Source of the DNA: Rhodothermus bifroesti
GTDB lineage: Bacteria > Bacteroidota > Rhodothermia > Rhodothermales > Rhodothermaceae
Length of the DNA stretch: 64,000 nucleotides
Assembly (NCBI RefSeq): GCF_017908595.1
Contig: NZ_JAGKTL010000001.1
Location: 186,001 to 250,000, forward strand
Direction: 5' to 3'
In this document: positions 2-30,333 of the stretch, in pieces
How the letters are laid out: each line of letters starts with the position of its first letter
Numbering within the stretch: position 1 is the first letter of the stretch
The notes under the pieces: model-generated
What the model was told of the DNA's origin: nothing
Database searches by the model: none
The model's input: only the letters and a program-made list of their open reading frames with translations
Position numbers and translations under genes: made by a program

Positions 2-1825
2 TGCCAGGCTGAATACGACGACCCTCAAAACCGGCGCTTTCATGCCCAACCCAACGCATGCCCTGACTGCGGCCCTCAGCTGCAACTTTGGGATCAGGCA
101 GGACATGTACTCGCTGAACGGGACGAAGCGCTCCGGCAGGCCACCGAGGCTATTCGACAAGGGCAAATCGTGGCTGTTAAAGGGCTAGGCGGTTTTCACC
201 TGATCGTTGATGCCCGCAATGAAGCCGCGGTGCACCGACTTCGGCTACGCAAAAATCGAGAGGCCAAGCCGTTTGCCCTGATGTATCCATCGCTCGAAGC
301 CGTGCAGGCACATGCCTTTGTCTCGGCATCCGAAGCTGCCCTGCTGAGTTCATCGGCTGCACCGATTGTGTTGCTGCGCCGCACCGAAGCCAGCTGGGAC
401 GCGCTAGCCCCTTCGGTAGCACCAGGGAATCCTTATTTAGGCATCATGTTGCCCTACACGCCCTTGCACCACCTGCTGCTGCAAGAACTCGACTTCCCTG
501 TAGTAGCCACCAGCGGCAATCGTTCCGAAGAGCCTATCTGTACCAGCGAGCACGAGGCATTGACGCGGCTTAGCGGGCTAGCCGACCTATTTTTGGTGCA
601 TAACCGACCCATTGCTCGTTACTGCGACGACTCGGTGGTGCGCTTGGTGGCCGGACAGCCTGTTTTTCTCCGGCGGGCACGCGGTTATGCCCCTTTACCT
701 GTCCAGCTCGCTGAAGACTGGCCCGATCGCCCCTTGCAGGTGCTGGCTGTTGGCGGCCACTTGAAAAACACCGTGGCGCTGGCTGTAGGCCACACTGTTT
801 GGCTTAGCCAACACATTGGCGATCTGGAAACGGCCGAAGCACGCGCGGCTTTTGTCCGCGTCATCAACGACTTGCAACAGCTCTATGAGCAAGGCCCCGA
901 GGCCGTAGCTTGCGACGCTCATCCCGACTATGCTTCCACACACCATGCCTACCGGCTAAAGCGACCAGTAACCACCGTCCAACATCACTTGGCACACGTG
1001 TGGGCTTGCATGGCCGAGCACCACCTAAAGCCTCCTGTAGTGGGCTTTGCCTGGGACGGCACGGGCTACGGTCCAGATGGTACGGTCTGGGGTGGAGAGT
1101 GCTTTTTGATTACTTCGGAGCGGGCCCTGCGGCTAGCCTATTTGCGACCGTTTCGGTTGCCAGGGGGCGAGGCTGCCCTGCGCGAACCTCGCCGAGCAGC
1201 ACTGGGCTTGCTGCATAGCTGGAAAGGCGCTGAAGCCTTAGAGCTAGTGCCCTCCATGCGTGAGGTGTTTTCACCTACTGAGCACCAGCTACTCTGTCGT
1301 ATGCTTGAACGCGGCCTAAACGCTCCATGGACTACCAGTGTGGGACGACTTTTCGATGCTGTAGCAGCCCTACTGGGTTTGTGCCTGTACAACCGGTTCG
1401 AGGGCGAGGCCGCTATGCGGTTGGAGTTTGAAGCCGAAAAGGCTGCGGCGTCAGGCATGCCATATTCCCTTACGCTCCAGCCTCAGGGCCACCAGCTTGT
1501 GCTCGACTGGGGGCCGCTGCTTGAAGCGTTGCTGGCCGATCATCGTCAAGGCGTGCCGAAAAGCCTTATGGCGCGACGCTTTCATGATGGGCTGGCTGTT
1601 GCTATCCTACACATAGCCCAGCACATCGGCTGCCCCCATGTTGTGCTCAGCGGCGGGTGCTTTCAAAACCGATTGCTTACCGAAAGTGCACTCCGGCTGT
1701 GCGCAGCAGCCGGATTTCTCCCCTATATTCACCGTCAGCTACCCCCTGGCGACGGCAGCTTGGCCCTAGGCCAGGTCGCTGCACTGCGCTGGGGCATAAC
1801 CCAACCCGAACGACCATGTGCTTAG
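2..1825 (+). CDS. hypF: Carbamoyltransferase HypF, 5'-truncated by window start
   Basis: HypF makes the cyanide ligands of the [NiFe]-hydrogenase active site by carbamoylating the C-terminal Cys of HypE, using carbamoyl phosphate and ATP. The frame is open from base 2, so the gene begins before the window; 607 C-terminal residues are visible of a family length of about 750-780. The first visible residues are the end of the zinc-finger region (CQAEYDDPQNRRFHAQ, then ACPDCGP). A YrdC-like domain follows (KGLGGFHLIVDA near residue 58, TSGNRSEEPIC), then a Kae1-like domain with the metal motif HHLAH and LSGGCFQNRLL near the C terminus. The acylphosphatase domain lies upstream of the window. The stop codon overlaps the hypC start, so translation is probably coupled. 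Identity is secure. Confidence 0.96.
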   Translation, partial: CQAEYDDPQNRRFHAQPNACPDCGPQLQLWDQAGHVLAERDEALRQATEAIRQGQIVAVKGLGGFHLIVDARNEAAVHRLRLRKNREAKPFALMYPSLEAVQAHAFVSASEAALLSSSAAPIVLLRRTEASWDALAPSVAPGNPYLGIMLPYTPLHHLLLQELDFPVVATSGNRSEEPICTSEHEALTRLSGLADLFLVHNRPIARYCDDSVVRLVAGQPVFLRRARGYAPLPVQLAEDWPDRPLQVLAVGGHLKNTVALAVGHTVWLSQHIGDLETAEARAAFVRVINDLQQLYEQGPEAVACDAHPDYASTHHAYRLKRPVTTVQHHLAHVWACMAEHHLKPPVVGFAWDGTGYGPDGTVWGGECFLITSERALRLAYLRPFRLPGGEAALREPRRAALGLLHSWKGAEALELVPSMREVFSPTEHQLLCRMLERGLNAPWTTSVGRLFDAVAALLGLCLYNRFEGEAAMRLEFEAEKAAASGMPYSLTLQPQGHQLVLDWGPLLEALLADHRQGVPKSLMARRFHDGLAVAILHIAQHIGCPHVVLSGGCFQNRLLTESALRLCAAAGFLPYIHRQLPPGDGSLALGQVAALRWGITQPERPCA

Positions 1826-4525: not shown

Positions 4526-5425
4526 TTATTTAAAGTTCCCGTGCACAGCGCCCGGAACACTGCGTCGGGAAAAGGGGCGAAGTTGAGACAGCAGCATACC
4601 CCCGAGCATTAGGCCGCAGCCGATAAGCTGGCGCAGGGTAAGCGTTTCATCTAACAGCCACCAGCCGCCTAGCGCCGCAAAAACAGCTTCTAGGCTGAAG
4701 AGAATCGCGGCATGTGTGGGATGCGCTTCGCGCTGAGCCACAACTTGAAGGGTATAGCCAATGCCTACGGAAAGCACCCCTGCATACAGTAACGCTCCCC
4801 AGGCATCGCGAGCCACAAGAAAGGAAGGGGCTTCCCAAAGGATAGCCGCCAAACTACTTAACCCGGCGCATGCCACAAACTGCATAAAAGCTAACCGAAA
4901 GGGCGGCATGCGATGCGCGTAGCGATCAATCAGATGAATGTGAAAAGCCCAGCAGATGGCGCTTGCCAATACAAGCACATCGCCAGGATTAACCGAGGGC
5001 GTCTCTGCAACGCTGAGCAGGTACATTCCTGCGGCAGCCAGCCCAGTGCCTAGCCAGGCTTCTTTGTAGGTGCGTTGCTTGAGCAGCACGCCTAGCAAAG
5101 GCACGAAAACCACATAAAGTCCCGTAATAAAACCAGCCTTGCCAGCCGTGGTATAAACAAGCCCGATCTGCTGCGTCGAAGCCCCCAAAAACAAAATCCC
5201 CCCGGCCAGTAATCCTACCCGAAGCTGGACGGTTGCCGGAAGCGCCCCCGGATCGCGTCGCCTCAGCAACGGCACGAGGACCAGACTGCCCATCGCAAAG
5301 CGTAGCGCGTTAAACCAAAATGGCCCCATATGCTCCATACCTACACGCTGCGCCACAAACGCAAAACCCCAGATGGCCGTAGCGAGCACAATGAGCAAAT
5401 CGGATTGGAGCGTTCTGGTCTTCAT
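4526..5425 (-). CDS. EamA/DMT-family inner-membrane transporter
   Basis: This 299-residue protein has the duplicated five-helix architecture of the drug/metabolite transporter superfamily. The N-terminal repeat opens with LIVLATAIWGFAFVAQR and the second begins near DVLVLASAICWAFHIHLIDRY, giving about ten hydrophobic helices. The first repeat ends before a short basic loop (RRRDPG), and the tail is cytoplasmic and basic. Substrate cannot be inferred; family members export amino acids, metabolites or drugs. The start ATG at 5425 has a clear purine-rich site (GGGAGAGAGGT) just upstream. It is transcribed away from rsmB. Confidence 0.88.
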   Translation of the reverse strand: MKTRTLQSDLLIVLATAIWGFAFVAQRVGMEHMGPFWFNALRFAMGSLVLVPLLRRRDPGALPATVQLRVGLLAGGILFLGASTQQIGLVYTTAGKAGFITGLYVVFVPLLGVLLKQRTYKEAWLGTGLAAAGMYLLSVAETPSVNPGDVLVLASAICWAFHIHLIDRYAHRMPPFRLAFMQFVACAGLSSLAAILWEAPSFLVARDAWGALLYAGVLSVGIGYTLQVVAQREAHPTHAAILFSLEAVFAALGGWWLLDETLTLRQLIGCGLMLGGMLLSQLRPFSRRSVPGAVHGNFK

Positions 5426-5747: not shown

Positions 5748-7037
5748 ATGCTGCTTCGCGTCTATCCGTTTTGGGTCGCCTCAGTAGTTGACGTGCTGCA
5801 GGAGATCCGCTGTTCTCCGCTACCTGCCGACACCGTGCTGCAGCAGTTCTTTCGCAAACACCGAAAAATGGGCAAACGGGATCGGGCTTTTGTAGCCGAG
5901 ACCGTTTATGGCATGCTGCGCCACTACCGACGGCTGGCCTATGCTGCCCAAGACCAAGCTAGCGATGTACGCTTTCTCGTGCTGCTCTATCTTCGGGTAT
6001 TCGGCTTTGGAGCAGCGAGCTTGGATCTGCCCATAAGCTTGTCCGAGCGTAGCAGGCTTGAGGCTGCGGCTCGACGTTTTCAAGCGCCTGCGCTGCCTGC
6101 AGATCCGGTCGCAGCGCTTGGCATCACCTATAGTTTGCCCGACTGGCTGGTGGCTGCATGGATGGCCGCGTTGCCTTACGAGGCTGTCGAGAGGCGTTGC
6201 GCTGCCTTAAAAGAACCCGCTCCCCTAACTATCCGGGTCAATACGCTGAAAGCCGATCGCGAAACTGTCCGGCAACGCCTACGGGCTGAAGGCTTTCCCA
6301 GCCAACCCACACCGTACAGTCCTACAGGACTGATTCTTGAAGAAAAAGCTTTTATTTTTCGAACGCGTGCTTTTCAAGAAGGCTTATTTGAAGTGCAGGA
6401 TGAAGGCAGCCAGCTGATCAGCTTACTTACTGAAGCCAAGCCAGGACAAGTAGTCGTGGATGGATGCGCAGGAGGTGGAGGCAAAACGTTGCATTTGGCC
6501 GCTCTAATGCAAGGTAAAGGGCGGCTGTATGCCTTCGACGTCCACAAAGCCCGTCTGCAGGAACTGCGCCCACGGGCGCGCCGCGCCGACGTGCACAACA
6601 TCCGACTCCACGTGCTCCCGCACAACCGGGCGCCGATTGTGCAGCGGCTCTATGGCAAGGCCGATGTGGTCCTGATCGACGCCCCTTGCAGCGGCAGCGG
6701 CGTGCTTCGACGCAACCCAGACGCAGCCTGGAAAATCACACCAGAGCGCCTCGCTGCCCTGGTCGCGCAGCAGCAACAAATCCTCGAAGCTTATGCCCCT
6801 CTCGTCCGCCCAGGCGGCAGACTCGTCTATGCTACCTGTTCCCTGCTCGCTGAAGAAAACGAACGCCAGATCGAAACTTTTCTAGCACAACATCCCGAAT
6901 TCACCCTACTCAGTGCTGCTGAAGTGCTTCAGCGACAACACATCGCCCTGCCCGGACAAACCGATGCCTTTCTGCGTTTAGAACCTGCCACGCACGGCAC
7001 CGACGGTTTCTTCGCGGCCATACTCCTACGCACCTAA
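5748..7037 (+). CDS. RsmB/NOL1-NOP2-Sun family rRNA cytosine-C5 methyltransferase
   Basis: This 429-residue SAM-dependent enzyme is expected to methylate a cytosine at C5 in 16S rRNA (RsmB-like) or another RNA. The N-terminal region (about 20-130) resembles the NusB-like RNA-binding domain of RsmB (KRDRAFVAETVYGMLRHYRRL). The catalytic half shows the SAM motif VVDGCAGGGGKTLHL (about 235) and both Sun-family cysteines, DAPCSGSG (about 311) and YATCSLLAEEN (about 360), the latter being the usual nucleophile. No strong ribosome-binding site precedes the ATG at 5748, so a slightly later start is possible. Exact target base is not determinable here. Confidence 0.9.
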   Translation: MLLRVYPFWVASVVDVLQEIRCSPLPADTVLQQFFRKHRKMGKRDRAFVAETVYGMLRHYRRLAYAAQDQASDVRFLVLLYLRVFGFGAASLDLPISLSERSRLEAAARRFQAPALPADPVAALGITYSLPDWLVAAWMAALPYEAVERRCAALKEPAPLTIRVNTLKADRETVRQRLRAEGFPSQPTPYSPTGLILEEKAFIFRTRAFQEGLFEVQDEGSQLISLLTEAKPGQVVVDGCAGGGGKTLHLAALMQGKGRLYAFDVHKARLQELRPRARRADVHNIRLHVLPHNRAPIVQRLYGKADVVLIDAPCSGSGVLRRNPDAAWKITPERLAALVAQQQQILEAYAPLVRPGGRLVYATCSLLAEENERQIETFLAQHPEFTLLSAAEVLQRQHIALPGQTDAFLRLEPATHGTDGFFAAILLRT

Positions 7038-7146
7038 GCTCTTAGACCTCACGCTGCCACTGCTAGCACGAGCAAGCTGCTTTGGGCATGCATTTCACGC
7101 AGCTAGTTCATTCCCAAAATGAATCGATTCAAAAATGCTATCAAAA

Positions 7147-7177
7147 TTTAACAACCCGTAGAAAGGGTCGATATTTG
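7147..7177 (+). promoter_or_regulatory. Candidate Bacteroidota-type promoter for the propeller-MCP gene
   Basis: A TTTA box (7147-7150), a 19-nt spacer and GATATTTG (7170-7177) fit the Bacteroidota pattern TTTG-N19-21-TAnnTTTG with two mismatches in total. The implied start site near 7184 leaves a 5' leader of about 27 nt before the ATG at 7211. This is pattern matching only. Confidence 0.33.
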
Positions 7178-7210
7178 AAGCCAAAGCGTATCTAGCAGGT
7201 GTAGCGCAAC

Positions 7211-10200
7211 ATGGCATATAAGCACTGGACCTGGACCGTAGCCCTACTGCTAGGGATTGCTACGCTCCAAGCACAACCGACACGGCTTCGGTTCACCCAT
7301 CTGACCAGCGATGAAGGGCTTTCCCGCTCATGGGTGACTGCTATAGTGCAGGACTCGTTGGGCTTTTTGTGGATTGGTACGGCTGGGGGTTTAAACCGCT
7401 ACGATGGCTACCGCTTCACGCTTTACGAGCACGATCCGCGCGACAGCTCGAGCCTGAGCAGCAGCTACATTCGTTGCCTGTATGTTGACCGTCGGGGTAC
7501 GCTTTGGGTTGGTACCGATGCTGGCCTAAGCCGCTACATTCCTGAGCAAGACGCTTTTTATAACTACACCGTAAGCAGTCGCACTGGCTTTCAAGGTGGA
7601 GCCGTCCAAGATATCGTAGAAGACCGTAGGGGTATGCTTTGGATGGCCAGCACCAATGGCCTATATCGTTATGATCCTAAACGCGGGGTTTTTACCCTTT
7701 ACCGTAACGATCCCGCCCAAGCATCTAGCCTGAGCCACAACGACGTGCGGGCTTTACTAGAAGACCGTAAAGGTAATCTTTGGGTGGCTACCGCTGGTGG
7801 ACTAGACCGCTTCGACGCTGCCAGTGGCACGTTTGAACACTTCCGCCATGATCCTCGCGATGCACGCAGCCTGCCGCACAATGTGCTTATGGATTTGGTC
7901 GAAGATCCTTACGGCTACCTCTGGGTGGCAACCGATGGCGGTGGGCTGGGGAGGTTGAATCTGCAGGCGATTGGCCGCGGCTTTGATCGCTTTCGCCATG
8001 ACCCTCGCAATCCTCGAAGCTTGGCCATCGATCGCGTACGCGTGCTTTATGTCGATCGCAAAGGCCAACTCTGGGTTGGCACAGAAAACGGGGGGCTAGA
8101 TCTTTTCGACTACAAAACCGAAACATTTTATCACAACCGACGCAGTCGTACTGATCCTAGTAGCTTAAACAACGAATCGATCTGGGCGCTCTTTCAAGAT
8201 CGGACTGGTAACCTGTGGGTTGGCACGTTTGCTGGCGGGCTCAACGTGCTTAAGCCAAACAGCAATGCCATCGAACACTACCGCAGCATTCCCGGCGATC
8301 CCTACAGCCTGAATGCTAATGCCATAAGCCGTTTTTACGAAGACCGAAAGGGAAACCTTTGGGTAGCTACGGATGGCGGGGGCTTTCATCGATTCGACCG
8401 CCAAACAGGTCGCTTCTATGGCTACAGTATGGCCAATACGAACCTCCGCACCGATGCGATTTTTGCTATGACAGAGGATGCCGAAGGCAATCTCTGGGTT
8501 GGCGGCTGGGGTGGGGGCATTGCCCGTTTCGATCGCGCACGGGAGCGCTTTACCGAGCATTTCGACGAAACCAATCTGCTTCTTACACCCCACGTGTTTG
8601 ATGCCCTTGTGGATGAACAGAACCGGCTTTGGGTGGCGAACTTTCTGGGTGGGCTGGTGCGCATCGATCTCAACACCCGAAAGTCCCACGTATACACTCC
8701 AGAAAACAGTGGCCTAAGCAGCAATCAGATTCTCCGCATGCTGCGCGATCCGGAAGGGCGCCTTGTACTAGCCACACAAAATGCCGGCGTAAGCATTTTT
8801 GATCCACTTACGGAAACGTTTACCACCTATCAACACGACCCCAACAATGCCAACAGCCTCAGCAGCAATTCGGTGCTTGCTATCCTTGCGCCTGATGCGT
8901 ACACGCTCTGGGTAGGGACGCAACACGGTCTCAACCACATCGACCGCCGTACAGGCGCCACGGCCCGCTACTATCGCGAAGATGGCCTTCCGAGCAATAT
9001 CATCGTTGGTTTGGCACGCGACCACGCAGGACGCCTATGGGTGGCGACCAACAGCGGCTTATGTCGCTTCGATCCTCAGGAAAAAAGCTGCGTGCTTTAT
9101 ACCAAAGCAGATGGTTTGCAGGGCAACGAGTTCAACCGCTTTTCAGATTACGTCTCGCGAGATGGGGCTCTTTACTTTGGGGGCTTTAACGGATTCAACG
9201 TGATTTATCCCGAACGCTTTGTGCAGAACACCACACCGCCTTTGATCGTGTTGACCGACTTCCGGCTGTTTAACCAACCCGTACGCATTGGCACCAAAGA
9301 TAGTCCGCTGCAGCAACACATTAGCGTAACACGCACGCTGAAGCTTGCTTACTGGCAAAACGTCGTGACTTTTGAGTTTGCTGCACTGGACTTTACGGCG
9401 CCTTCGAAAAATCGTTATGCCTACAAGCTCGAAGGTTTCGACCTGGACTGGAACGAGGTGGGGCCACAGCGAACGGCTACCTACAGCAATCTGGATCCAG
9501 GTCGCTACGTGCTGCTTGTTCGCGGTACGAATAACGATGGTCTCTGGAGCACGCAACCAGCCAAACTGGAGCTTATCATCACGCCGCCTTTTTGGGAGAC
9601 GTGGTGGTTTCGCGCTTTTGTCGTTTCAGCGCTTATCGCCTCTGTTGCAGCCGTGGTCCAACGCACCAGGCAACGCCATAAGTACCTAGAATCCGTCAAT
9701 GCCGAACTGGCCGCCATGAACCAGCGGCTTGAAGCTGAGATGCGGCATGCTGCCGAAGCTGAACAGGAAAAACGGCGCGCACTCGAAGAGGCTGCCGAAC
9801 ACGATCGCCAAGCCAAAGCCCAGCTCGAAGCCCAGCAGCAATACCTGGAGCATAGCGTGCTGGAAATGCTCTCAGCAATGGAACGCTTCTCACGGGGTGA
9901 CCTTACCGTATCGCTTAGCGCCACTCAGGAGGATGCCATTGGTCGCCTGTTTACTGGATTTAACCAGGCAGTAGCAAACATCGAAGCCATCCTGCGTGAA
10001 GTCACTTCGGTCGTCCAGGCTACGGCCGACACCAGCCGGGAAATTTCGCATAACTCAGACGAACTAGCCGCAGGCGTGCAGCAACTTACCTATCAGACGG
10101 CCGAAGTGGCTAGCGCGATCGAAGAGATGGTGCGCACCACTGCAGAAACCACGCGCAGCCTTAGCCAGGCTGCAGCACTAGCCGAACAATCTTCTGCCCA

Positions 10201-10861
10201 GGCCGAACATGGCGGTCAAGTCGCAAAGGACGCCGTCCAACGCATGACCGAAGTCGCACAGGCCGTTGCCCAATCTTCAGAAACCATTCGTGCCTTGGAC
10301 GAAAACACGCAGAAAATCAATGCGATGGCGCGCATTATCGACGAAATTGCAGACCAAACAAACCTGTTGGCGCTCAATGCAGCCATCGAAGCCGCTCGGG
10401 CCGGCGATCAAGGCCGTGGTTTTGCGGTGGTAGCTGATGAGGTACGTAAGCTGGCTGAACGAACCGCTGCCGCAACGAAAGAAATCGAGCAGATGACGGC
10501 CCAGATTCGCCGCGACACTTCCCGGGCTGTAACCTCTATGCATCAGGTCAACCGCGAAGTGGACGCGGGCAGGCGCCTGGTAGACCAGGTAGGTATGCTC
10601 TTGGAAGACATCATTGCCCGCTCCAAACAGGTACAAGATTACATTGCACAAATTGCCACAGCAAGCGAAGAGCAGTCTGCAACCATCCAGCACATTAGCG
10701 AAAACGTGGAAACCATCGCCCAGATCACCCAGCAGGCGGCAGCAGGCAATACGTCTATCGCTTCCGCCATGCAGCAACTTGCCCAGCGCATGGAAAATCT
10801 CCGCCGCCTAGTAGCTCGCTTCCGCTTCGACAGCGCGGTTTCTGCAGAAACAAGCGCCTGA
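7211..10861 (+). CDS. Two-component-type propeller sensor fused to HAMP and methyl-accepting chemotaxis domain
   Basis: This 1216-residue membrane receptor has a signal peptide (1-22, ending LQAQ) and 14 reg_prop repeats (about 35-680) of the type LWVGT..GGL.R(Y/F). Fourteen repeats would make two seven-bladed propellers, as in Bacteroides hybrid two-component sensors. A Y_Y_Y domain follows ([14 protein letters not shown], about 735-795), then a transmembrane helix (about 799-817), a coiled coil rich in Glu/Ala/Gln, a HAMP-like segment ([11 protein letters not shown], about 890) and a full MCP signalling hairpin with the conserved tip ([20 protein letters not shown], about 1045). There is no histidine kinase or AraC output. 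It should sense a periplasmic ligand and signal to CheA/CheW; no che genes are in view. It ends 44 bp from the convergent pectin operon. Confidence 0.93.
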
Positions 10862-10905
10862 GACCTACCTAGACACTTTGGACTCCGTACGCTTGCGTAA
10901 GGCTC

Positions 10906-12153
10906 TTAAGCCTTTAGCCACTGATCAAACCAGCTAAAGGCCTCCGTTTGCATCGCCCGGCCAAAACAGTGGCCGCTATCGTAAAAGCTGCACTGCAGCT
11001 GCGCTTCGGCAGATACGCAGCGGTACACTTCCTGCAATTGATCAACAGCACGCTGCATTTCTGCAAGGGTAAAGAGCGGATCTTGCGTGCCGCATTGCAC
11101 AAGCGTTGGGGCTGGCACGCGCAATCCTAAGAGCTCTGGATAGTCCAGCTCGTGTGCTAAAAGAGGAACGTAAAGCATCCAGGTATGCGTGTAACTCCGG
11201 TTCACCACCAAATCGCGCCATGTGGTCATCATGCAGCTGACCACAGCGCAGCGGATGCGATTGTCCATTCCAGCTAGCAGGACCGTTTGCCAACCGCCAC
11301 CGGAAAATCCTCCACACCCGATGCGCTCGGGGTCCACCTCAGGCAAACTACACAGCACATCCAAAGCGTAGCGAAGCTCCGCAAGCAGCACACCCGGCCA
11401 GGTCGTACCCGCAGCCAGCAGCGAACGGGCAACCATATGCTCATGCCAAGCTGCCCATTCATTATAGGCACGAATTTCGACCTCTGTCTTAGGGTCTTCA
11501 GGGGGCAGGCCGCGACGCACGCGCTCTGGCACTGCTTCAAGCCGAATGCGCCGGCTGCCAAACGGAAACACGTCGGGTACGAGCACCACATAGCCCCGTC
11601 GGGCTAGTTCATTGGCCCAAGCCTGTCCCTCATAGTGTTTTTCCTGGTGGGCTACCATTAATGGATGACGTGCACCTGGATCGACAATCTTCTCCCGGCC
11701 GAAAAACTTATCCCCACCATGATCATGAAAAGCCAGCACGCCGGGCAAAGGCCGGGAGGCGTTTACTGGGCGTAGTAGATAAGCCCGCGTAGGTGGCCCA
11801 AAAGGAAGTTGCCAAACCAAGTCTTCAACCACCACATCCCTATAGACAAGGCGCGCCTGTACCTTAAGGGAGCGATCTAGCCCGATTTCCGGTGCAGCCA
11901 GCAAGGCCTGCACCCGAGCACGCGCCTGCACCTGCCATGCCCTTAGGTCTACTGGCGCTAGGCGCCGAAGGGACAACCTTGGGGGATCCTCAGCCAAACA
12001 AGCAGCCCAACGGCCATAAGCGCCAAGCACAGATCCGGCTTCTTCATCATTTGTCAGCGCTGTTAGGCATTCCTCGGGGCGTACGCTACTTTTGCTGCCG
12101 AGCGCAGCTGCCCCCAGTAAAAGCTCCAGGAACGCTCTGCGATCTAAAGGCAC
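10906..12153 (-). CDS. Secreted alpha/beta hydrolase, probable acetyl- or carbohydrate esterase of the pectin operon
   Basis: This dienelactone hydrolase/acetyl-xylan-esterase-like protein is about 415 aa. I place the start at GTG 12153, five bases after the pectinesterase stop, because it gives PLDRRAFLELLLGAAALG, a twin-arginine-like signal peptide; the ATG-like start further upstream (12276) would lie inside the pectinesterase gene. The oxyanion/core region reads GVLAFHDHGGDK. The nucleophile elbow is GGFSGGGWQ (Ser near 281), and a candidate catalytic His lies in DSGHCFG (near 396). As last gene of the pectin operon it probably removes acetyl or other ester groups from pectic fragments; the substrate is inferred from context only. 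Confidence 0.82.
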   Translation of the reverse strand: MPLDRRAFLELLLGAAALGSKSSVRPEECLTALTNDEEAGSVLGAYGRWAACLAEDPPRLSLRRLAPVDLRAWQVQARARVQALLAAPEIGLDRSLKVQARLVYRDVVVEDLVWQLPFGPPTRAYLLRPVNASRPLPGVLAFHDHGGDKFFGREKIVDPGARHPLMVAHQEKHYEGQAWANELARRGYVVLVPDVFPFGSRRIRLEAVPERVRRGLPPEDPKTEVEIRAYNEWAAWHEHMVARSLLAAGTTWPGVLLAELRYALDVLCSLPEVDPERIGCGGFSGGGWQTVLLAGMDNRIRCAVVSCMMTTWRDLVVNRSYTHTWMLYVPLLAHELDYPELLGLRVPAPTLVQCGTQDPLFTLAEMQRAVDQLQEVYRCVSAEAQLQCSFYDSGHCFGRAMQTEAFSWFDQWLKA

Positions 12154-12157
12154 GGCT

Positions 12158-14395
12158 TTAAGACAGTTCTTGCCAAGGCATCCACCCTGCCAGTACATGT
12201 TCTGGCGCGTAGAACACAGCCTCTTGGGCCGAGAGTTGCGGACGGTCTGGATAGGCACCTGGTCCGGTGCTCCCATATTCGAACAGTCGCTCTCTAGCCG
12301 GATCTATCCCGCGCATCTCCGTCCAACCTTCTGCCCGGACGTGATCTTCCATATAACAGTGCAAGAAAACAGCACTGCTACTTACCAGGCCAAGCTGGTT
12401 TGAAGGATGCCAGGGGCGTCCGAGCCATACCGAAGCCGCATTCATCTTTGGCGATTCTTTAAGCAATCGGCACCGGTAAAACACGAATCCGTAAGGTTGG
12501 CTTCGGGGCGTACTGGGTGCTGTAATGTAGCCATTGTTAGACTGCCCTCGGTCACGCGAGATCAGATCGCATTGTTCAAATACCGCTATGCCGCCGCCAA
12601 AGATAAAATCGACGTGCCCTAGAATAATGCAATCGCGAAAGTAGCTGCGTCCTCCGTCTACAAACAGCGTATCCTGGTAGCCACGAATAACGCAGTCGTA
12701 AAAAACCGTGCGATCGGCTTCACGATCTACCAGTACGGCCACAGCCTGTGGGTCTTGGAGCGCAACGTGACGCGCAGGATAATCGAAAGCGTTTTCGATC
12801 GTTAGGTGCGCAATGCGCACATTAGGCGCGGCAATCCGAAGCGTAAAACTCCCCCGCGTGCCGCAGCGCCCGGCCTCACGGGGCTGCGCCGAGCGATTTT
12901 CAGCGCGCCAATGCGCTTGCAGCACCTGCCATTGGGGCGTATCCCTGCAAAGACCGCCGGCTACATCACCGTAGCTTAAAATGGTCGCTGCTCGCTCTTC
13001 ACCGATCAAGTAGACAAACGGCCGATCAATGGAGAGCTTTTCGTAGTAACGGCCGCGGCGCACAAAGATTACGTAGGGTGCTGCATTATCGGGGGGCACA
13101 TCGGCCAGAGCGCTTCCAATCGTTCGATAGTGTCGCACACCGTTTATTTGCAATCCTTCAGACCCTTCATAAGCAGGGTCGACTACGGCAGCATAGGTAT
13201 AGGATTCTGCAGGAGACCGTAGGGCTCCTGTCGCTGCTTCCATAATGCTCACCCGAAGTGGCTCCCGTAGGCGCTGCACAAAACGGTCCAAATACGCCCA
13301 CCAGTCTTCAACACGCTGAAATTCACCTGCAGCTGTCCAGCCTGCCCCAACGTAGTGCGTAACAGGCTGTCCGGGATGGATGTGCCCTAAAAGCAAGTAA
13401 TGGTTTTCAGTTTCGCGTACCCCTAGCAGGTGTTCTCCGGGCATCAGAATGGCCGTGCCCAAGTCCCCGTGGCCGCCGTTTTGACGACTCACTGGCCCCC
13501 AAACGCTTAGCCAGGTCCAGTCGCTGCGCTGCTTCCAAGCGCCCGTCACACCTTCCCGCTTAACCAGTCCGATCGCGTAGGTTAACGGCTGCTTGGTAGC
13601 TGCGTGAAACGTTACTTCCTGGCGAAATAAGTACTGTCCTGCATCGATGGTGATGCGCCGCGTTTCGGAGACCTCTACGCCGCTTATCTGCCAGGGCTCG
13701 TAGTACAGTTCTACTATAGCCCGAAGCGGTCCCTGCGCTACAATGCGGTAGGCCTTGAAGTTACGGGCCGGATAGAGGCGGTCCTGGTGCCAGATGGCCG
13801 TCCCGCCTGTCCCCAAGGTTGGACCCACTGAGAAAAAGTCGGCCCCTTCACCCGTGTCGATGTGGTAGGCCTCTTGTCCCTTTGCATACCAGCGCGTGAT
13901 CACCAGGTCGCGCACGCGCTTCAGCCAAACATCAATGCCGCTTGAAACCAGCGACTCCAGCCGCCACAGCCCTTGGCCATAAGTACGAAAGGCTACGCGG
14001 TCACTTTCCCAAGCCACATCATCCCGCCGCGGTTCATGAAAAGCAAACGCCCGGGCAGCGAACGTTGTCTCCGGTGCAGCAGCTTCAATCCGATAGCCGC
14101 GCGTTTCACGGGGCCAGAGTTGTACCAAAAAAAGCAACGCGTCGGGCCGTCCATCGCCATCTTCATCCATCACTTGATGCGGGGCAAGCTGACCGCTGGC
14201 GACATCCCGCACGCGTACCCGTTCGGGAGTAAGTGTCGACAAACGCTCCTGCAATGCTGCCCAGGAAAGCTCTACGAGCTCATCAGGACGTGCAAAGTCC
14301 GATGGATTGGTCACGCGCACGTGTACGTACGCTGGGACTTCAGCGGCACCACTGAGCAACAATAGCCCGACACAAAGCAGCTTGCACCCACGCAT
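12158..14395 (-). CDS. DUF4861-pectinesterase (CE8) fusion
   Basis: This secreted 745-residue, two-domain protein has a signal peptide at 1-23 (LLCVGLLLLSGAAEVPAY). Residues about 24-410 match my recollection of DUF4861, found in Bacteroidota pectin loci (RPDELVELSWAALQ, MDEDGDGRPDALLF, GADFFSVGPTLGTGG). Residues about 430-740 form a right-handed beta-helix pectin methylesterase carrying all CE8 motifs: GRYYEKL, PQAVAVLVDREAD, GYQDTLF with its catalytic Asp (about 573), DFIFG with the second Asp (about 597), and LGRPW (about 660). It should release methanol from methyl-esterified galacturonan. It starts 14 bp after the GH105 gene. Confidence 0.93.
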   Translation of the reverse strand: MRGCKLLCVGLLLLSGAAEVPAYVHVRVTNPSDFARPDELVELSWAALQERLSTLTPERVRVRDVASGQLAPHQVMDEDGDGRPDALLFLVQLWPRETRGYRIEAAAPETTFAARAFAFHEPRRDDVAWESDRVAFRTYGQGLWRLESLVSSGIDVWLKRVRDLVITRWYAKGQEAYHIDTGEGADFFSVGPTLGTGGTAIWHQDRLYPARNFKAYRIVAQGPLRAIVELYYEPWQISGVEVSETRRITIDAGQYLFRQEVTFHAATKQPLTYAIGLVKREGVTGAWKQRSDWTWLSVWGPVSRQNGGHGDLGTAILMPGEHLLGVRETENHYLLLGHIHPGQPVTHYVGAGWTAAGEFQRVEDWWAYLDRFVQRLREPLRVSIMEAATGALRSPAESYTYAAVVDPAYEGSEGLQINGVRHYRTIGSALADVPPDNAAPYVIFVRRGRYYEKLSIDRPFVYLIGEERAATILSYGDVAGGLCRDTPQWQVLQAHWRAENRSAQPREAGRCGTRGSFTLRIAAPNVRIAHLTIENAFDYPARHVALQDPQAVAVLVDREADRTVFYDCVIRGYQDTLFVDGGRSYFRDCIILGHVDFIFGGGIAVFEQCDLISRDRGQSNNGYITAPSTPRSQPYGFVFYRCRLLKESPKMNAASVWLGRPWHPSNQLGLVSSSAVFLHCYMEDHVRAEGWTEMRGIDPARERLFEYGSTGPGAYPDRPQLSAQEAVFYAPEHVLAGWMPWQELS

Positions 14396-14409
14396 GGCTC
14401 AAGCACGAT

Positions 14410-15597
14410 TTACTCACCTAGGGCTTCTATTTCTAAGCTGGCCAGAATGAACGGTCCCACCCCTTTGGGGTCATCGCGGACAATCGGTTCACTTAGGTAG
14501 TAGGCGACCGAACCGTCACGCTGTTGCGGTCCACCTAGACCAGCTACCTGGCAAATCTGATTCAGATGCACGGTACCATCGGGATCAACGGTGACCAGGT
14601 GTTGGATAAGCCCCCGATAGCCGCGACGCGCTACTTCAAGATACGCTGGCGCCAAATATCCTTTACGCACGCCTTTAGCCAAGGTGTAGACAAACATACT
14701 GGAAGCTGAGGCTTCCAGGTAATTGCCGGGGTGGCTTGGCCGATCCAAGACCTGGTACCAAAGACCAGTGACTGGGTCTTGGACACGGGAAATCGCCGCC
14801 GCCAAATCGCTAAGCACGCGTAGAAGGGCCGGGCGGTCGGGATGCGCAAGCGGAAGAAAATCTAACACGTCAACCAAGGCCATAGCATACCAACCCATAC
14901 CGCGACCCCAAAAGTTGGCTGAGAGCCCTGTAATCGAATCGGCCCAGACCTGCTGGCGCTTTTCGTCCCAACCATGATAGTACAGACCGGTGCGCGGATC
15001 ACGCAAGTAGCGGGCTACCAACAAAATCTCGTGGGTCGTCTCATCGATTGCTTTGGGATCGTTAAATGTCACGCCATAGCGTACCAGAAACGGTCCCATC
15101 ATGTAGACCCCATCGAGCCAGAGTTGGTAAGGGTAGATTTTTTTATGCCAGAAGCCCCCTTCGCTGGTACGAGGGTGGTGCCGGAGCTGGTCGCGCAACG
15201 TATCGATAGCCCGACGGTAGCGCTCTGCTCCCGTTTGCTCGTAGAGCAAAAAAAGGAGCTTGCCCGTATTGATCTGATCCAGGTTGTACTCCTCTTTTTC
15301 GTAGGTCCGGATAGCGCCTTCAGGCGTGATGAAGCGATCGAGGTTTGTGCGAATAAACTCCATGTAGCGCGGCTCGCCCGTACGTTTCCAAAGCTCTTCA
15401 AAAGCGCGCAGCATCACGCCAACTTCGTAGTGCCAGCGCTCAGAAAGCACGGGCCGCTGCCGCATTACCGATTCAGCCATGCGAACCGACCAGGGCCGCA
15501 CTTCCGGCACCTGCGCCCAAGCCGCAAGCCCCAGCAAACAACCCAGCCCAATCCCCCAGATTCGTCCGTACCAGCCCATCGTTTTGCTTTGATTCAT
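14410..15597 (-). CDS. GH105 unsaturated rhamnogalacturonyl/galacturonyl hydrolase
   Basis: This (alpha/alpha)6-barrel hydrolase (395 aa from ATG 15597) removes the unsaturated uronic acid left by pectin lyases. The YteR/YesR-like core shows EYNLDQINTGKLLFLLYEQT (Asp near 106), the catalytic-acid region YQLWLDGVYMMGPF (Asp near 160) and FWGRGMGWYAMALVDVL. The N terminus from 15597 is a normal signal peptide (GLGCLLGLAAWAQ). A longer frame to 15678 would run through the inverted repeat at 15622-15656 and adds a polar, non-signal-like leader, so I reject it. Export suggests it works in the periplasm on imported oligosaccharides. Confidence 0.92.
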   Translation of the reverse strand: MNQSKTMGWYGRIWGIGLGCLLGLAAWAQVPEVRPWSVRMAESVMRQRPVLSERWHYEVGVMLRAFEELWKRTGEPRYMEFIRTNLDRFITPEGAIRTYEKEEYNLDQINTGKLLFLLYEQTGAERYRRAIDTLRDQLRHHPRTSEGGFWHKKIYPYQLWLDGVYMMGPFLVRYGVTFNDPKAIDETTHEILLVARYLRDPRTGLYYHGWDEKRQQVWADSITGLSANFWGRGMGWYAMALVDVLDFLPLAHPDRPALLRVLSDLAAAISRVQDPVTGLWYQVLDRPSHPGNYLEASASSMFVYTLAKGVRKGYLAPAYLEVARRGYRGLIQHLVTVDPDGTVHLNQICQVAGLGGPQQRDGSVAYYLSEPIVRDDPKGVGPFILASLEIEALGE

Positions 15598-15621
15598 GAG
15601 ACGTTGATCCCGGCACCAAGA

Positions 15622-15656
15622 GACGCCCCAGGAGCCCACAACGCGCCTGGGGCGTC
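15622..15656 (-). repeat. 11-bp perfect inverted repeat between two pectin-operon genes
   Basis: GACGCCCCAGG (15622-15632) and CCTGGGGCGTC (15646-15656) are exact reverse complements with a 13-nt loop. The hairpin lies in the 83-bp gap between the beta-helix gene and GH105. No T-run follows it on either strand, so it is not a classical terminator. It could stabilise the upstream mRNA end or partially attenuate transcription. Confidence 0.75.
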
Positions 15657-15680
15657 CGTCCTGTCCCCTCCCATGCAACC

Positions 15681-17399
15681 TCAGTTAGAGGGGAGGAGCA
15701 GCATTTTGCGCGTTAGCACCGTGCTACCGGCCTCCAGGCGGTAGAAGTAGACACCTGGGGTCACCTTTCGGCCCACCAGGTCGGTACCATCCCAGGTAGC
15801 CGTGTAGACCCCAGCCACCTGCCGGACACCGTCGGCCAGGCGAGCCACCTCCTGCCCCAGGAGGTTGAACACGCGCAGCGTAACCGTAGCCGGCTCGGGC
15901 AGCGTGTAGGTAATGCGCGTTTCCCGCGTAAACGGGTTCGGATAATTCTGGTGAAGCTGGAATGCCAGCGCTGGCAGGTGGCTGGACTGACGCTCAATAG
16001 CCGTCAGTTCCCACTGCGCCTTTTTCTCTGGAAACCAATTCAGATCGCCAACTGGGAAACCACCAGCCGCTCCAGTATAAGCCGGGGAAGTAGTGGGATA
16101 GGAGGCATCAAACTGCCGCATGAAGTACGTGATCGGTTGCCGGTCGAAGTCATGTTGATCGCGCACAAACGCTGTGGTGGCTTTTGTACGGCCAGTTTGC
16201 GTGCGATACCACTCGGCCAGGCGGAGCATTTTGCTAATAGAAGGTCGACTAGCCACGGTCAATTCGCTTAACTCCACAAAGGCGCTGGCAGAGTCGGCCC
16301 CTAGCCGCCGATTGATGTGATAGGACAACGGTGCCCCAGGGCCAATGATGTCGTTGTCGCCATCGGTGCCGTTGTCTGGGTTGCCGTCATCGCCCCGGCC
16401 ATCGCCATACTTGGCATAGAACGCTTTTACCGAATCAGACACCGCCCAGTAGTTGTTCGCCACAACCCAACGGGTGGTATCGTTAGGCACCGAGAAAATC
16501 CAGATCATGCGCGGTTTACCGTTTGGGTAGAGCTCGCCATGTTCGTCAAATTCGGCTTGCCGGCTGGCATCACTGGTATCGGCCCCGAGCACAAAAGAAT
16601 CGAAGAAGAGATTATTTGTAATGCGGACGCTTTTACCTACCCATCCTAAAGCTAATGTGCCGTGATAGGACGTGCCATTGAGGATAGTGTTATGGTCAAA
16701 GATAAGGTTGTTAATTGGGGCGGTGCTGGACCGATGGCGGATGATGCGATCTAAAAAGTTTACAAAAGTGCAGTTCTGGATAAACAGCGTATCGACCGAG
16801 GTGTCACGCAGGTCGATGGCTTTACCGGCACCAAAATTTGAACGCCCCAGGTCTCCCATATTGGCAAAGATCGTATTTGTAATGCGCATGACCCGAACAG
16901 CTGCCTCTGTGCGGATGTGTTGCCCGCGCGTATTAGACATGATTACACCATCGATGATCAGGTCGTAGCCTGGAGCTGTAGTGCGTACAATGGTACTGCT
17001 AATGTTGGCCACTTCTTCCGGAAACACATCTGCATATCCCACGAGCACGACGTCCTTCAACCACACATTCCCTTCCATCCGAATGCTGGGATCTGGGAAT
17101 TGTCCTGTGCTTTGGTTAACCACAGGAAAGATGATCGCCTTTTCCCCTTCCCCAGCTTCTGTCATGAGGCGTAGGTCAAACCCGCGCACAATGATAGGGG
17201 CATTGATCAAGTAGATTCCATTCCGCCGAAGCACGTAAACCCGGTTAGGATCCCGGGGCGTATCGTTAGCAATAACCTCATTTAAGTATTGCCCTGAGAC
17301 CTCAAAGGGTTCGATAATAAGCGCTTGCGCCTTTGCAGTCTGGGTGCACCATAAAAATAGCACGCCCAGCAGGATCAGCATTCGGGTAGCGGTGTGCAT
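15681..17399 (-). CDS. Secreted right-handed beta-helix protein with T9SS C-terminal sorting domain
   Basis: This 572-residue protein has a signal peptide (1-25, ending TAKAQ) and parallel beta-helix-like repeats at about 60-330, rich in [18 protein letters not shown] and [11 protein letters not shown] turns typical of pectate-lyase-fold proteins. A mixed region with an acidic Asp/Gly/Asn stretch ([15 protein letters not shown]), possibly Ca-binding, follows. The C-terminal type A T9SS sorting domain (about 485-572) starts [14 protein letters not shown] and ends [10 protein letters not shown]...LTRKMLLL. It may resemble DUF5123/DUF4957 pectin-locus proteins. A lyase role is likely from context, but I cannot point to catalytic Arg/Asp residues. 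GAGAGG lies about 6 nt before ATG 17399. Confidence 0.85.
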
Positions 17400-17420
17400 A
17401 GCATCCTCTCAGGTTTAGGG

Positions 17421-20400
17421 TTACAAAAGCAGACGTAATCCTAGATCTATCGTGGTACCGTAGATTTCCCGGTCGTTAGGCAGCTGCCAATCCTGCACGC
17501 GATTCAGTACGATGCTGCCTTCCTCGACATTGGTCAGGTTATTTACGTTAAGCAGGAGAAACAAATTGGAGCGCAATTGCTGCCGCAGTGCCAGGTCCCA
17601 ACGCGTAAAACCCTTAACCATGCGATCGTCACGGCCATCTGGCGAGAAACGCGTATTAAATGCCCCTTGATGAAACATCGAAAGGCGCGCTGAAAAACCT
17701 CGATAGTCGTAACCTATCGCCACATTAGCCAAGAGCTCCGGCTGCCGTTCTAGTTTGTGCTTACGCTCGACAAACACATAGCGCAAGCGAGGAATAGGCG
17801 GTAAAGGGGGCCGGTGAACGTAATAGGTCTCGGTTTCTGTGCCTGGGATGTAGGTCTCTGAGCGAATGAATGAAAGGTTATAGTTAAGCACCAGGTGGCG
17901 CAGCAAGCCAGGCAAAAACAGGAAGTTCGCCTGATGCTCGATTTCTAAGCCCCAAACACGCGTGGGTTTGGTGGAATTGTAAGGGTAGGTAAGCGCTAAT
18001 CCTTGATTCTGGAAGGGATTGGTTACGTTAATCCCCAATGTTCTGAAAAGCGAGTCGGCCCCAGATGGATCAAAAAAGACCCCATCGATAAGGTGATACA
18101 TCTGCCGGATATCCTTGTAAAAGGCCGATACAGAAAACAGCCCAAAGCGACTGTCGTAAAGCGCAACGTTCACCTCATAATTCCAAGCCTGAGCTGCCCG
18201 AAGACTTGGATTACCCACAATCAGTGAATTGCCCGGATAAAACGTGCCGGCCTTGCGCGCTACAAAATTGGGGAGACGTTGGTTATAATCTGGACGTGCC
18301 AGCGCTTTATAGGCTGCCAAACGCACAGTAAGAAAGCCTGTGGGCCGTAGCGTAAGGTGCACGTTAGGAAGCCATACGGTTTCGTCAAATCTGCCTGTTG
18401 TGTCCCGCATTACACCTTGCGGCACAGGAAAACCCGAAAGGTCCTTTGGGGTGTAGCGCGTGGCATAGTCGTTATGCTCTCGCTCCACCCGCACGCCCCC
18501 AATGAGCGTCACCCGACGACCTAAGTTCAGCGTATGCATCACATAGGCGGCCGATACACGTTCGGTGAGATCGTAAAACAGCGCCTCGGCCTCCAAATTG
18601 CGCTCAAATTCAGGGTTTGTGCCCGCTGCATCCGAAAAACCATTTCGGTTAAGCGTCCACCATTGCCGTAGCCGATCGCGATCGAGCAGTGGATACAAAC
18701 GAAAACGATCGAACAGGGCGCGATCTTCCGGATGAAGTCCTAAGAAATTCGTTACCAGGAGTCGATCGCCAGCCATCTGAAGCGTTTCAAAAGGCGTCCC
18801 TGAAAAGTTTTTCGGCACTACCTGCCCCTCTGCTGTTTTCACATACTGCGGAAAGGCCTCGTTGTAATAGGGCGCCAGTAGTTCGTGACGCTCACGGAAA
18901 CGGCTTTTTTGCCGGTACTTTGCGCCTATCTTGAATTGGCCAGCTAGCCCACCACCAAGCGCGTAATCCCGAGCGATATCAAGGTAAAGGGAGGTTTCGG
19001 TTTCGCGGCTTTCTTCTCCTCGGTAAAAAGCCGTGTAGAAATAGGCTCGTTCAAAATTATTTAGTGCATAAGCAATAATCCGCTCTGGGGGACCTTTGAG
19101 TTCTTCCGGTGGAATGCGGCCCATCCCAGCAATCGGATTCCCTTCCGCATCGGTAGCCGAAGGCTCAGTAAAGCGGATGTCAAAATCAAACGGATAATGC
19201 GATTGCGAACGGGCGTAGGAGGCCCCCCAGTTCATCTGCCACCGGCCAAAATACTGCTCTCCGCGCAGAGCACTGGTCAGCGTGTAAATGCGCTGATCAC
19301 GATCCCGCGCGCCATAGAATATCTCCGAGCCTTCGGTGGGGTAATTCCGATAATAGTCAACAAAACTGCGTCGCGTAGCATTGTAAACGTTATTCAAGCG
19401 AATGGTCCCCCCATTCGGGGTATCCAGATCCAACAAAACACTTAAACCTTGCCGCGTTCGAATCTCATTTCTAAAGTTCAGCTCAATATCTGAGATCTCA
19501 TAGTCTGTCCCACTAGCCAGACTCATGTCATACGCCAAATCGTAGTACTCTCGACTGCGATCACGCCGCTCCAACCCACCAATGAACTGCACACCTAAGC
19601 GCTGCTTCCAGAAGCGTTCTCCATAACGGGCACTCAGATCGTACTGCCCCCAAGCCTGATTCAGCTCATTGTAAGCCCCTCGCGTATCCAAACGTATCAG
19701 GCGCTGCTCCGGAGCCTTCTTGGTGACCAGGTTGACGCTACCTGCAATGGCATCCGCATCCTTGTCTGGCGTCAGGGCTTTATACAACTCGATACCGGCA
19801 AGCGAACCTTGAGCAATCGTGCTAAGGTCAACCCCTCGCGCATCTGCATCCGTAGCCGCCAACCGAACCCCATCGACCGTAATCGTAGCAAACCGATCAC
19901 TCAACCCCCGCAAGACAATCTTGTTAGCCTCACCTCCAGAACGCTGAAGAGCAACCCCAGGCAGCCGCCCTAAAGCTTCTGCAGCATTCGCATCAGGAAG
20001 CTCTTGAATTCTTTCTTCCGAAACTACATTGACAATCGTATGGGCATTAAGCTGCTGGTTGATCGCGGCAATTTGACCCAAAGCCTGCCCTACAATAATC
20101 ACTTCTTGCCCGCCAATGGCTTCTGGCACTAAGGCAATGTCCAATAAGATCGTCTCGGCTCCTTGAATGTGCACAGATAGGTTTTTGGTCTGATAGCTTA
20201 AGTACGAGACGCGCAGCGTATAGGTACCCGGAGGAATATTCGTAATGCGATAACGCCCTTCAATGTCGGTTGCGCTCCCCTTTCCCGTACCTACCAAATA
20301 GACGTTTGCACCGGGTAACACGTCACCTGTTAACGAGTCAGTCACTACACCATAGATGGTCCCCTGCGCCCAAGCCGGTAGCGCTCCCAAAAGCAACAAA

Positions 20401-20441
20401 CAGCTCCAGAACCAAACCATTCGATTTACCCGCATAAGCAA
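17421..20441 (-). CDS. TonB-dependent receptor with carboxypeptidase-regulatory-like domain (pectin operon)
   Basis: This 1006-residue outer-membrane transporter is the first gene of the pectin operon. A signal peptide ends near LPAWAQ, followed by a CarboxypepD_reg-like domain (GTIYGVVTDSLTGDVLPGA, about 27-110). The plug (about 130-240; EERIQELPDANAAEALGRL, VLRGLSDRFATITVDGVRL) and barrel are of the type common in Xanthomonas/Caulobacter carbohydrate TonB receptors rather than SusC. No SusD partner accompanies it. The start is uncertain between TTG 20441 and ATG 20435; an AGAGG motif 7 nt before the TTG favours the TTG. It probably imports pectic oligosaccharides, by context. Confidence 0.92.
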   Translation of the reverse strand: MLMRVNRMVWFWSCLLLLGALPAWAQGTIYGVVTDSLTGDVLPGANVYLVGTGKGSATDIEGRYRITNIPPGTYTLRVSYLSYQTKNLSVHIQGAETILLDIALVPEAIGGQEVIIVGQALGQIAAINQQLNAHTIVNVVSEERIQELPDANAAEALGRLPGVALQRSGGEANKIVLRGLSDRFATITVDGVRLAATDADARGVDLSTIAQGSLAGIELYKALTPDKDADAIAGSVNLVTKKAPEQRLIRLDTRGAYNELNQAWGQYDLSARYGERFWKQRLGVQFIGGLERRDRSREYYDLAYDMSLASGTDYEISDIELNFRNEIRTRQGLSVLLDLDTPNGGTIRLNNVYNATRRSFVDYYRNYPTEGSEIFYGARDRDQRIYTLTSALRGEQYFGRWQMNWGASYARSQSHYPFDFDIRFTEPSATDAEGNPIAGMGRIPPEELKGPPERIIAYALNNFERAYFYTAFYRGEESRETETSLYLDIARDYALGGGLAGQFKIGAKYRQKSRFRERHELLAPYYNEAFPQYVKTAEGQVVPKNFSGTPFETLQMAGDRLLVTNFLGLHPEDRALFDRFRLYPLLDRDRLRQWWTLNRNGFSDAAGTNPEFERNLEAEALFYDLTERVSAAYVMHTLNLGRRVTLIGGVRVEREHNDYATRYTPKDLSGFPVPQGVMRDTTGRFDETVWLPNVHLTLRPTGFLTVRLAAYKALARPDYNQRLPNFVARKAGTFYPGNSLIVGNPSLRAAQAWNYEVNVALYDSRFGLFSVSAFYKDIRQMYHLIDGVFFDPSGADSLFRTLGINVTNPFQNQGLALTYPYNSTKPTRVWGLEIEHQANFLFLPGLLRHLVLNYNLSFIRSETYIPGTETETYYVHRPPLPPIPRLRYVFVERKHKLERQPELLANVAIGYDYRGFSARLSMFHQGAFNTRFSPDGRDDRMVKGFTRWDLALRQQLRSNLFLLLNVNNLTNVEEGSIVLNRVQDWQLPNDREIYGTTIDLGLRLLL

Positions 20442-22586: not shown

Positions 22587-23615
22587 CTAAAACTGCCCGC
22601 GCAGGGTGAAAATGTGATTGTTCTCAAAAAATTGAGCCGGCATGAATCCGTAGTCAATCGCCATATTCACCCCCAAAACAGGCTGCAGGTTCAAAGTTGC
22701 ACCAAAAGCCGGCCGGTTGTCAAACGGTCCTTTCAAATCTCCTTGGCGCTCCACATTCTGCACAAAGGCTCCGCGCACAATGATGTAATTCTGAAGGTTG
22801 TAGGCAAGCTGTCCCTGAACCTGACTGGGGCCATAGGTGTTTTCCATATAGGTCATGCTTACCGAAAGCCCCTCAAACAACCGGTAGCTTAGGCCCACAT
22901 CCACGACGGTAGGGACGTCGGCACTGGCAGCGATAACCTTGTATTTGGTGGTTGCCCGACCCCCTTCAGGCGTGCGGGCATCGATAATTAGGGGCGAGCC
23001 ATCATAGCGCATCGAGGTCCCAATATTCCGGATAGCTACGCCCACCGAAAGCCCACCAAAACCTAAGAAGTTGTCATACTGCACACCCGCATCGAACGTC
23101 ACCCCGCTCGTGCTCACATTGGCGAAGCTTTCGTAATTCAGGTTAACTGTAGCCCCTACACGGATGCGATCCGTCATAGCCCGGCTGTAGGAAGCACCCA
23201 GCGTGAAAAACGTAGGCGAAAACGTCTCGCCAGTGCCATCCATGTTGAACTCATCGGTCTTCTGAATTTCACCGATATCCAGGCTGCGCAGGTGCAAGGC
23301 AATGGCCCCCAGGGAGCCAAAACGCAAGCCCACGGCAGCGAAGTTGATGCCAATATCGGCAATGTAATTGCGGCGTGAGACCATCACCAGCACATTGCCT
23401 TCGCCATAGTCGAGGCCCGCTGGATTCCAAAGCACGCTCTCGATGCCGGTAATCGCTGCGGCCGCGCCGCTACCACCTAGAAACTGCGCACCCAGCGGAA
23501 TCAACAGTTGAGAAGCGGCATTGGTGCCATTACGCGCTTCCTGGGCTTGGGCTATTCCGCTTATGCCCAGCAGGAGTAAAAGCCCTAAGCCTTTTGCAAA
23601 TCGACGCGGGTTCAT
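22587..23615 (-). CDS. PorV/PorQ-family outer-membrane beta-barrel protein
   Basis: This 342-residue protein has a signal peptide (1-24, ending GIAQAQ) followed by repeated amphipathic strands and the family-typical N-terminal segment SQLLIPLGAQFLGGSGAAAAITGIESVLWNPAGL. The Trp-Asn-Pro-Ala-Gly element is characteristic of PorV/FadL-like barrels. It ends in aromatic Phe (LRGQF), the usual barrel C terminus. PorV is the T9SS outer-membrane shuttle that carries substrates to the sortase; this paralogue probably serves the large T9SS-tailed protein encoded just upstream. GGAGGG lies about 8 nt before ATG 23615. Confidence 0.85.
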   Translation of the reverse strand: MNPRRFAKGLGLLLLLGISGIAQAQEARNGTNAASQLLIPLGAQFLGGSGAAAAITGIESVLWNPAGLDYGEGNVLVMVSRRNYIADIGINFAAVGLRFGSLGAIALHLRSLDIGEIQKTDEFNMDGTGETFSPTFFTLGASYSRAMTDRIRVGATVNLNYESFANVSTSGVTFDAGVQYDNFLGFGGLSVGVAIRNIGTSMRYDGSPLIIDARTPEGGRATTKYKVIAASADVPTVVDVGLSYRLFEGLSVSMTYMENTYGPSQVQGQLAYNLQNYIIVRGAFVQNVERQGDLKGPFDNRPAFGATLNLQPVLGVNMAIDYGFMPAQFFENNHIFTLRGQF

Positions 23616-23643
23616 GATCTATGCCCTCCGTTTGGCTTCAGGA

Positions 23644-27018: not shown

Positions 27019-27023
27019 AGTCG

Positions 27024-27029
27024 CTCCTC
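27024..27029 (-). promoter_or_regulatory. Ribosome-binding site fixing the T9SS protein start
   Basis: GAGGAG on the minus strand lies 5 nt before ATG 27018 and inside the longer alternative frame. It supports the shorter start with its clean signal peptide. Confidence 0.65.
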
Positions 27030-27068
27030 GATGCATTCCTGAATAGGCCATGGTCCCTGTTGATTGCC

Positions 27069-30128: not shown

Positions 30129-30333
30129 ACGTTCCTCCTCTATCGTTGGCTTAGTGGAAATAAAAAAGCGCTTTCAAAAGCCCATTGGCTAATATTTTAC
30201 ATTCCCTTCAAAAAGTCAACACCTACGTCCAAGAACTTGCTACATATTAAACCAGATAACTTTAGCAGCCAAAAGTGCCTTTAGGGAGTTGTTGGCAAGC
30301 CTTGTTGAACGGTAGGATGGCTGCCCTGAACGG

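Follow-up and report, generated by a model that had tools for sequence, protein, structure and literature searches.

The best studied glycan sensors are those of the hybrid two-component systems (HTCS) of Bacteroides, among them BT4663 (PDB 4a2l and 4a2m), BT3049, BT4673 and BT0366, in which two seven-bladed Reg_prop propellers and a Y_Y_Y domain are followed by one transmembrane helix. The periplasmic Reg_prop/YYY domains of this family bind specific oligosaccharides directly, and binding has been reported for four sensors (PMC3243724). BT4663 is dimeric, and the entry faces of its propellers bind disaccharides (PMC5121618); a scissor-like movement has been reported for its signalling (PMC8534201). 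A similar domain layout is found outside glycan sensing in PorZ, a component of the type IX secretion system (T9SS) (PMC5121618). The receptor analysed here is encoded by Rhodothermus bifroesti in a window of 64,000 nucleotides, by which we mean the whole stretch of DNA that was analysed (Table 1). It has the same two propellers, Y_Y_Y domain and single membrane helix but, unlike the Bacteroides proteins, no Pfam match to HisKA, HATPase, receiver or AraC domains was obtained in its chain, and its output is an MCP hairpin that would act via CheA instead of on transcription. It is a chemoreceptor with an HTCS-type sensor, not an HTCS.

In common with other MCPs, the protein has a complete hairpin with a conserved tip, an EE methylation-type motif, and gap-free register and identical hairpin length with respect to the other MCPs of its genome. 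In contrast to them, a double propeller of about 770 residues takes the place of the common 4HB, Cache or PAS sensors, and a coiled coil lies between the membrane and a weak HAMP. Chemotaxis to polysaccharides is known in a few bacteria. Sphingomonas sp. A1 offers a likeness, chemotaxis to the plant polysaccharide pectin (SPH1118), but there taxis is triggered by a periplasmic solute-binding protein that is tied to an ABC transporter (PMC7055323), whereas in Rhodothermus we propose that the sensor is located inside the receptor. Taken singly, both modules are well known. Joined in one protein they are rare, though recurrent, and apparently undescribed in the literature searched: no papers joining Reg_prop or Y_Y_Y with chemoreceptors were found, in a search that covered little of the subscription literature and is thus weak evidence of absence. 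Our verdict is that the gene represents a real, little-noticed type of chemoreceptor, predicted from sequence, by which a sensor normally used for gene switching probably steers swimming in Rhodothermus.

Domain architecture and signalling output

The receptor gene is a single uninterrupted open reading frame without stop or frameshift. Pfam searches detected Reg_prop (E 5e-65, 10 stretches above threshold), Y_Y_Y (E 5e-18) and MCPsignal (PF00015; E 4e-49, 167 bits as compared to a cut-off of 34.6, residues 989-1173), and inspection of the blade motifs gave exactly 14 starts, at residues 53, 98, 143, 190, 237, 287, 335, 383, 428, 473, 518, 566, 609 and 654. The ectodomain is homologous over its full length to PDB 4a2l (E 2.9e-120, phmmer). 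Moreover, the AlphaFold model of residues 22-880, based on 41 sequences (mean pLDDT 91.2, pTM 0.83), displays successive four-stranded blades, 14 in number, then the beta domain corresponding to Y_Y_Y and a single continuous helix through membrane and linker, with less confident helix blocks at the far end. It is on the homology to 4a2l together with this model that the statement of a double-propeller fold is based. These results support the assignment of the ectodomain to the HTCS sensor type and bear out the sequence-only reading, which had described the periplasmic half as 14 Reg_prop repeats plus Y_Y_Y and had proposed the fold prediction. One hydrophobic helix was located, at residues 797-818, and the predicted topology places the propellers in the periplasm.

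Table 1. Features of the receptor gene and of the neighbouring operon (positions in the window).
Feature	Residues	Position	Strand	Basis
Receptor CDS (Reg_prop/Y_Y_Y chemoreceptor)	1-1216	7211..10861	+	1216 aa ORF; orthologue in G001
Probable signal peptide	1-21	7211..7273	+	inferred from sequence
Two seven-bladed propellers, 14 Reg_prop blades	22-668	7274..9214	+	Pfam, blade motifs, AlphaFold, PDB 4a2l
Y_Y_Y domain	727-790	9389..9580	+	Pfam
Transmembrane helix	797-818	9599..9664	+	hydrophobicity; continuous helix in AlphaFold model
Coiled-coil-like long helix, from membrane to HAMP-like stretch	819-880	9665..9850	+	model pLDDT 52-67 (lower confidence); sequence
HAMP-like stretch	884-925	9860..9985	+	Pfam 18.5 bits, below cut-off 25
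MCP signalling hairpin	931-1206	10001..10828	+	Pfam; gap-free alignment to three other MCPs
Hairpin tip	1031-1095	within 10001..10828	+
Methylation-type motif (EE), ten residues, in MCP hairpin	1149-1158			motif inspection
Convergent pectin-type operon, separate from receptor: esterase, DUF4861-pectinesterase, GH88, T9SS-tail protein, SusC-like receptor		10906..20441	-	Pfam; candidate ligand source only

For the output, HAMP plus a complete MCP hairpin had been claimed, of which the hairpin stood and the HAMP did so only in weakened form. The hairpin, about 280 residues long, aligns without gaps to every one of the other three MCPs, the genome having four in total; both arms are complete and in register with them, and the tip matches theirs. 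The gap-free alignment thus places the four MCPs in one length class, and they could share arrays. By contrast, the HAMP match covers only profile positions 11-52 and lies about 60-65 residues beyond the membrane helix, with a helix in between, not directly after the membrane. A HAMP directly after the last transmembrane helix is usual in MCPs, neither universal nor obligatory for membership. Since the HAMP of the receptor scores under the Pfam cut-off and lies at a distance from the membrane, its coupling may differ from that of standard MCPs.

The source genome possesses a complete chemotaxis-flagellar cluster on contig 3, with genes for FliN, FliM, MotB, MotA, CheB, CheA, CheZ, two CheY, CheR and CheW as well as a flagellar hook-type gene. 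A lack of CheA or CheW, which would have spoken against a chemotaxis output, is excluded by this finding, and CheR and CheB, included in the same proposed search, were likewise located. The motif at residue 1149 is a candidate methylation site, and CheR and CheB are encoded in the genome. In a window-wide scan, FliA-type promoters were matched no more often than expected by chance, and the stretch 7038-7210 upstream of the receptor gene had no match.

Following this, we propose, and consider it likely, that the protein is a transmembrane chemoreceptor whose HTCS-type double propeller binds a small ligand, alters CheA activity and thereby biases flagellar rotation. The periplasmic double propeller, which like its Bacteroides homologues is probably a dimer, would bind a small ligand. 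This is most likely an oligosaccharide from polysaccharide breakdown, and its binding would change how the two Y_Y_Y domains are placed relative to each other. This change may be relayed via the single membrane helix, the long coiled coil and the HAMP-like stretch to the MCP hairpin, which would alter the activity of CheA in a CheA-CheW array; in the last step, CheA would act via CheY to bias flagellar rotation, the direction of the response being predicted as is the coupling to CheA, with adaptation via CheR and CheB.

Recurrence and origins of the architecture

When the C-terminal parts of the 88 proteins with the most closely related ectodomains were compared, a kinase ATPase domain was found in 62, SpoIIE in 13, AraC in five and MCPsignal in one, which supports the view that an MCP output is unusual for this type of ectodomain, as had been suggested by comparison with the customary histidine kinase and AraC outputs. 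Full-length matches from Y_Y_Y to MCP were present in at least 7 of 394 genomes of the phylum (G000, which is the source genome, G001, G004, G345 with two, G353, G402 and G157), and full-length matches to the receptor of L007, a Zodletone locus, in at least 4 of 82 genomes of the phylum to which that genome belongs. These counts are lower bounds because the large searches scored no more than a few candidates from each genome; domains were verified by Pfam for L123 (the G001 orthologue), L134-L138 and L007, and the remaining matches in the phylum of L007 were judged by match coverage and frame length. No Reg_prop-MCP receptor was detected in 400 Chloroflexota genomes at E 1e-40 with the three best candidates per genome scored. 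The count of the architecture across genomes that had been recommended therefore returns it as rare and recurrent in two phyla. The other Reg_prop-Y_Y_Y-MCP proteins (two in G345, one each in G353, G402, G157 and L007, G449:C49, and those of G863, G865 and G866) share the three modules and their order, at about 28-40% identity, and their ectodomains belong to several separate lineages; no HAMP match was obtained by Pfam in L137, L138 and L007.

In the ectodomain tree, the receptor groups with kinase-type proteins of L007 and L020 nearer than with the MCP protein of L007 (98/94 support). A single origin of the Reg_prop-MCP ectodomains was rejected: forcing them into one clade cost 78 log-likelihood units (p-AU 4.4e-5) in a 30-row set that contained long branches and in which domain content defined the group. 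The MCP halves, too, are scattered over several places in their tree, which requires three changes or more; only one of these is enforced when just the starred branches are counted, and support is weaker because of long branches. Judged from these trees, the best reading is a repeated exchange of output modules across several lineages. More tentatively, HTCS-type glycan sensors may have been coupled to MCP hairpins repeatedly and independently, giving a class of chemoreceptors that directly read polysaccharide fragments and steer swimming, with the one of Rhodothermus reporting pectic breakdown products; we regard this extended reading as possible and rather doubtful. A chemoreceptor built on the best studied glycan sensors would show that one sensor type can serve gene control in some proteins and movement in others, and it would open a route to chemoreceptors with predictable glycan specificity.

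At L007 (4430-15149 of a Zodletone metagenome-assembled genome), three Reg_prop proteins are encoded in tandem; two of them have a histidine kinase as output and the third an MCP, and a response regulator is encoded between them. G449:C49 is a second Reg_prop-MCP of the same genome on a separate contig. Other Reg_prop-type frames of 1352, 1007 and 1097 aa occur in the source genome (G000:C2) at about 348-350 kb, 733 kb and 116 kb, without MCP halves in the matches seen.

Ligand of the ectodomain and the pectin operon

Glycan sensing by the receptor is likely, as judged from the kinship of its ectodomain. The sequence-only reading named pectic oligosaccharides as candidate ligands, since the receptor gene converges on a pectin operon. 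The more specific proposal, that this chemoreceptor responds to a pectic oligosaccharide which that operon sets free, is a possibility that we consider less probable than its negation. The five-gene pectin block is conserved as a unit elsewhere on the chromosome in both G001 and G004 (taken to be Rhodothermus marinus DSM 4252, because the MCP gene on its second contig has the coordinates of the one on plasmid NC_013502 of that strain), where receptor and block have other neighbours and are hundreds of kilobases apart; in G001, the receptor is located at 0.385 Mb and the pectinesterase at 3.05 Mb of a contig of 3.43 Mb. The upstream neighbours of the receptor (window ORFs 4526-5425 and 5748-7037) are kept in both genomes while its downstream side differs, and the pectin block there adjoins the same genes that follow it in the window; hence about 10,861-10,906 of the window marks the boundary of a rearrangement relative to G001 and G004. 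Adjacency, present only in the source genome, consequently says little about the ligand, and a pectin link by adjacency was rejected: no conserved genetic linkage of the receptor to a glycan operon was found in the comparison with G001 and G004.

What remains of the proposal is the co-occurrence of the two genes. The receptor and the DUF4861-pectinesterase show an identical pattern in the seven genomes of the genus, both being present in G000, G001 and G004 and absent from G002, G003, G005 and G006 (92-99% complete), and this pattern was displayed by none of the blocks compared in the window at 20.5-40.4 kb. The three carriers do not form a clade in the rpoB protein tree, but the rpoB DNA tree, in which base composition differs, places G000 otherwise, so that the co-occurrence represents only one or two independent events and is suggestive, not proof. 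Pectin chemotaxis as such exists, by the different route of Sphingomonas sp. A1 described above (PMC7055323). On the other hand, identity to relatives whose output differs does not exceed about 40%, which is too low for a transfer of ligand.

It is less probable still, and on the whole unlikely, that the ectodomain detects no free glycan but a protein of the periplasm, a component of the envelope or polysaccharide of the cell itself, with the MCP reporting the state of the envelope or surface. PorZ sets a precedent for such a role with its similar domain layout in type IX secretion (PMC5121618). Moreover, the other Reg_prop-MCP genes adjoin unrelated genes (cobW, peptidase, helicase, cytochrome), with no glycan-utilisation neighbours evident among the flanking genes scanned. 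However, the nearest solved relatives of the ectodomain are HTCS sensors, and the four of these with reported binding take oligosaccharides (PMC3243724), which argues for an oligosaccharide ligand of the proposed chemoreceptor. The question of the ligand lends itself to direct testing, as ectodomains of the HTCS type have yielded crystals and calorimetric evidence of binding.

Integrity and conservation of the gene

The orthologue in G001, an independent single-contig genome of the genus, encodes 1235 aa with identical Pfam architecture and shows 77% identity to the receptor over residues 10-1208. The 1198 residues compared contain a single gap, one residue long, which falls at residue 452 and thus well away from the junction of ectodomain and MCP half. 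Values of pN and pS between the two species were 0.13 and 0.67 for the ectodomain, 0.18 and 0.69 for the linker and 0.14 and 0.70 for the MCP half: both halves are under purifying selection, with pN/pS of about 0.2 in all parts. The hairpin tip is 92% identical. This constraint, together with the near absence of gaps, makes it very unlikely that the fusion is decaying or non-functional and persists without signalling, even though its HAMP is sub-threshold, its presence across the genus is patchy and the R. marinus DSM 4252 copy is interrupted by an in-frame TGA at about codon 99 (locus L124, about 11652-11654), which may reflect either real decay or a record error. Given its absence from four of the seven genomes and this interruption, the receptor is dispensable. 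An artefact in which two genes were fused by a frameshift or assembly error, the concern raised for 9600-9900, can be dismissed as next to impossible, since the reading frame is intact, the only gap to the G001 orthologue is remote from the junction and the same fusion occurs in the independent genomes G001, G402, G353, G345 and G157, in L007 and in others.

A second variable island of the window extends over 22591-30152 and encodes a PorV-like protein, an unmatched protein of 1135 aa (23644-27051, minus strand; no Pfam match at E 0.001) and a TonB-receptor-like protein; at the DNA level the island is found in G002 and G003 and not in G001 or G004.
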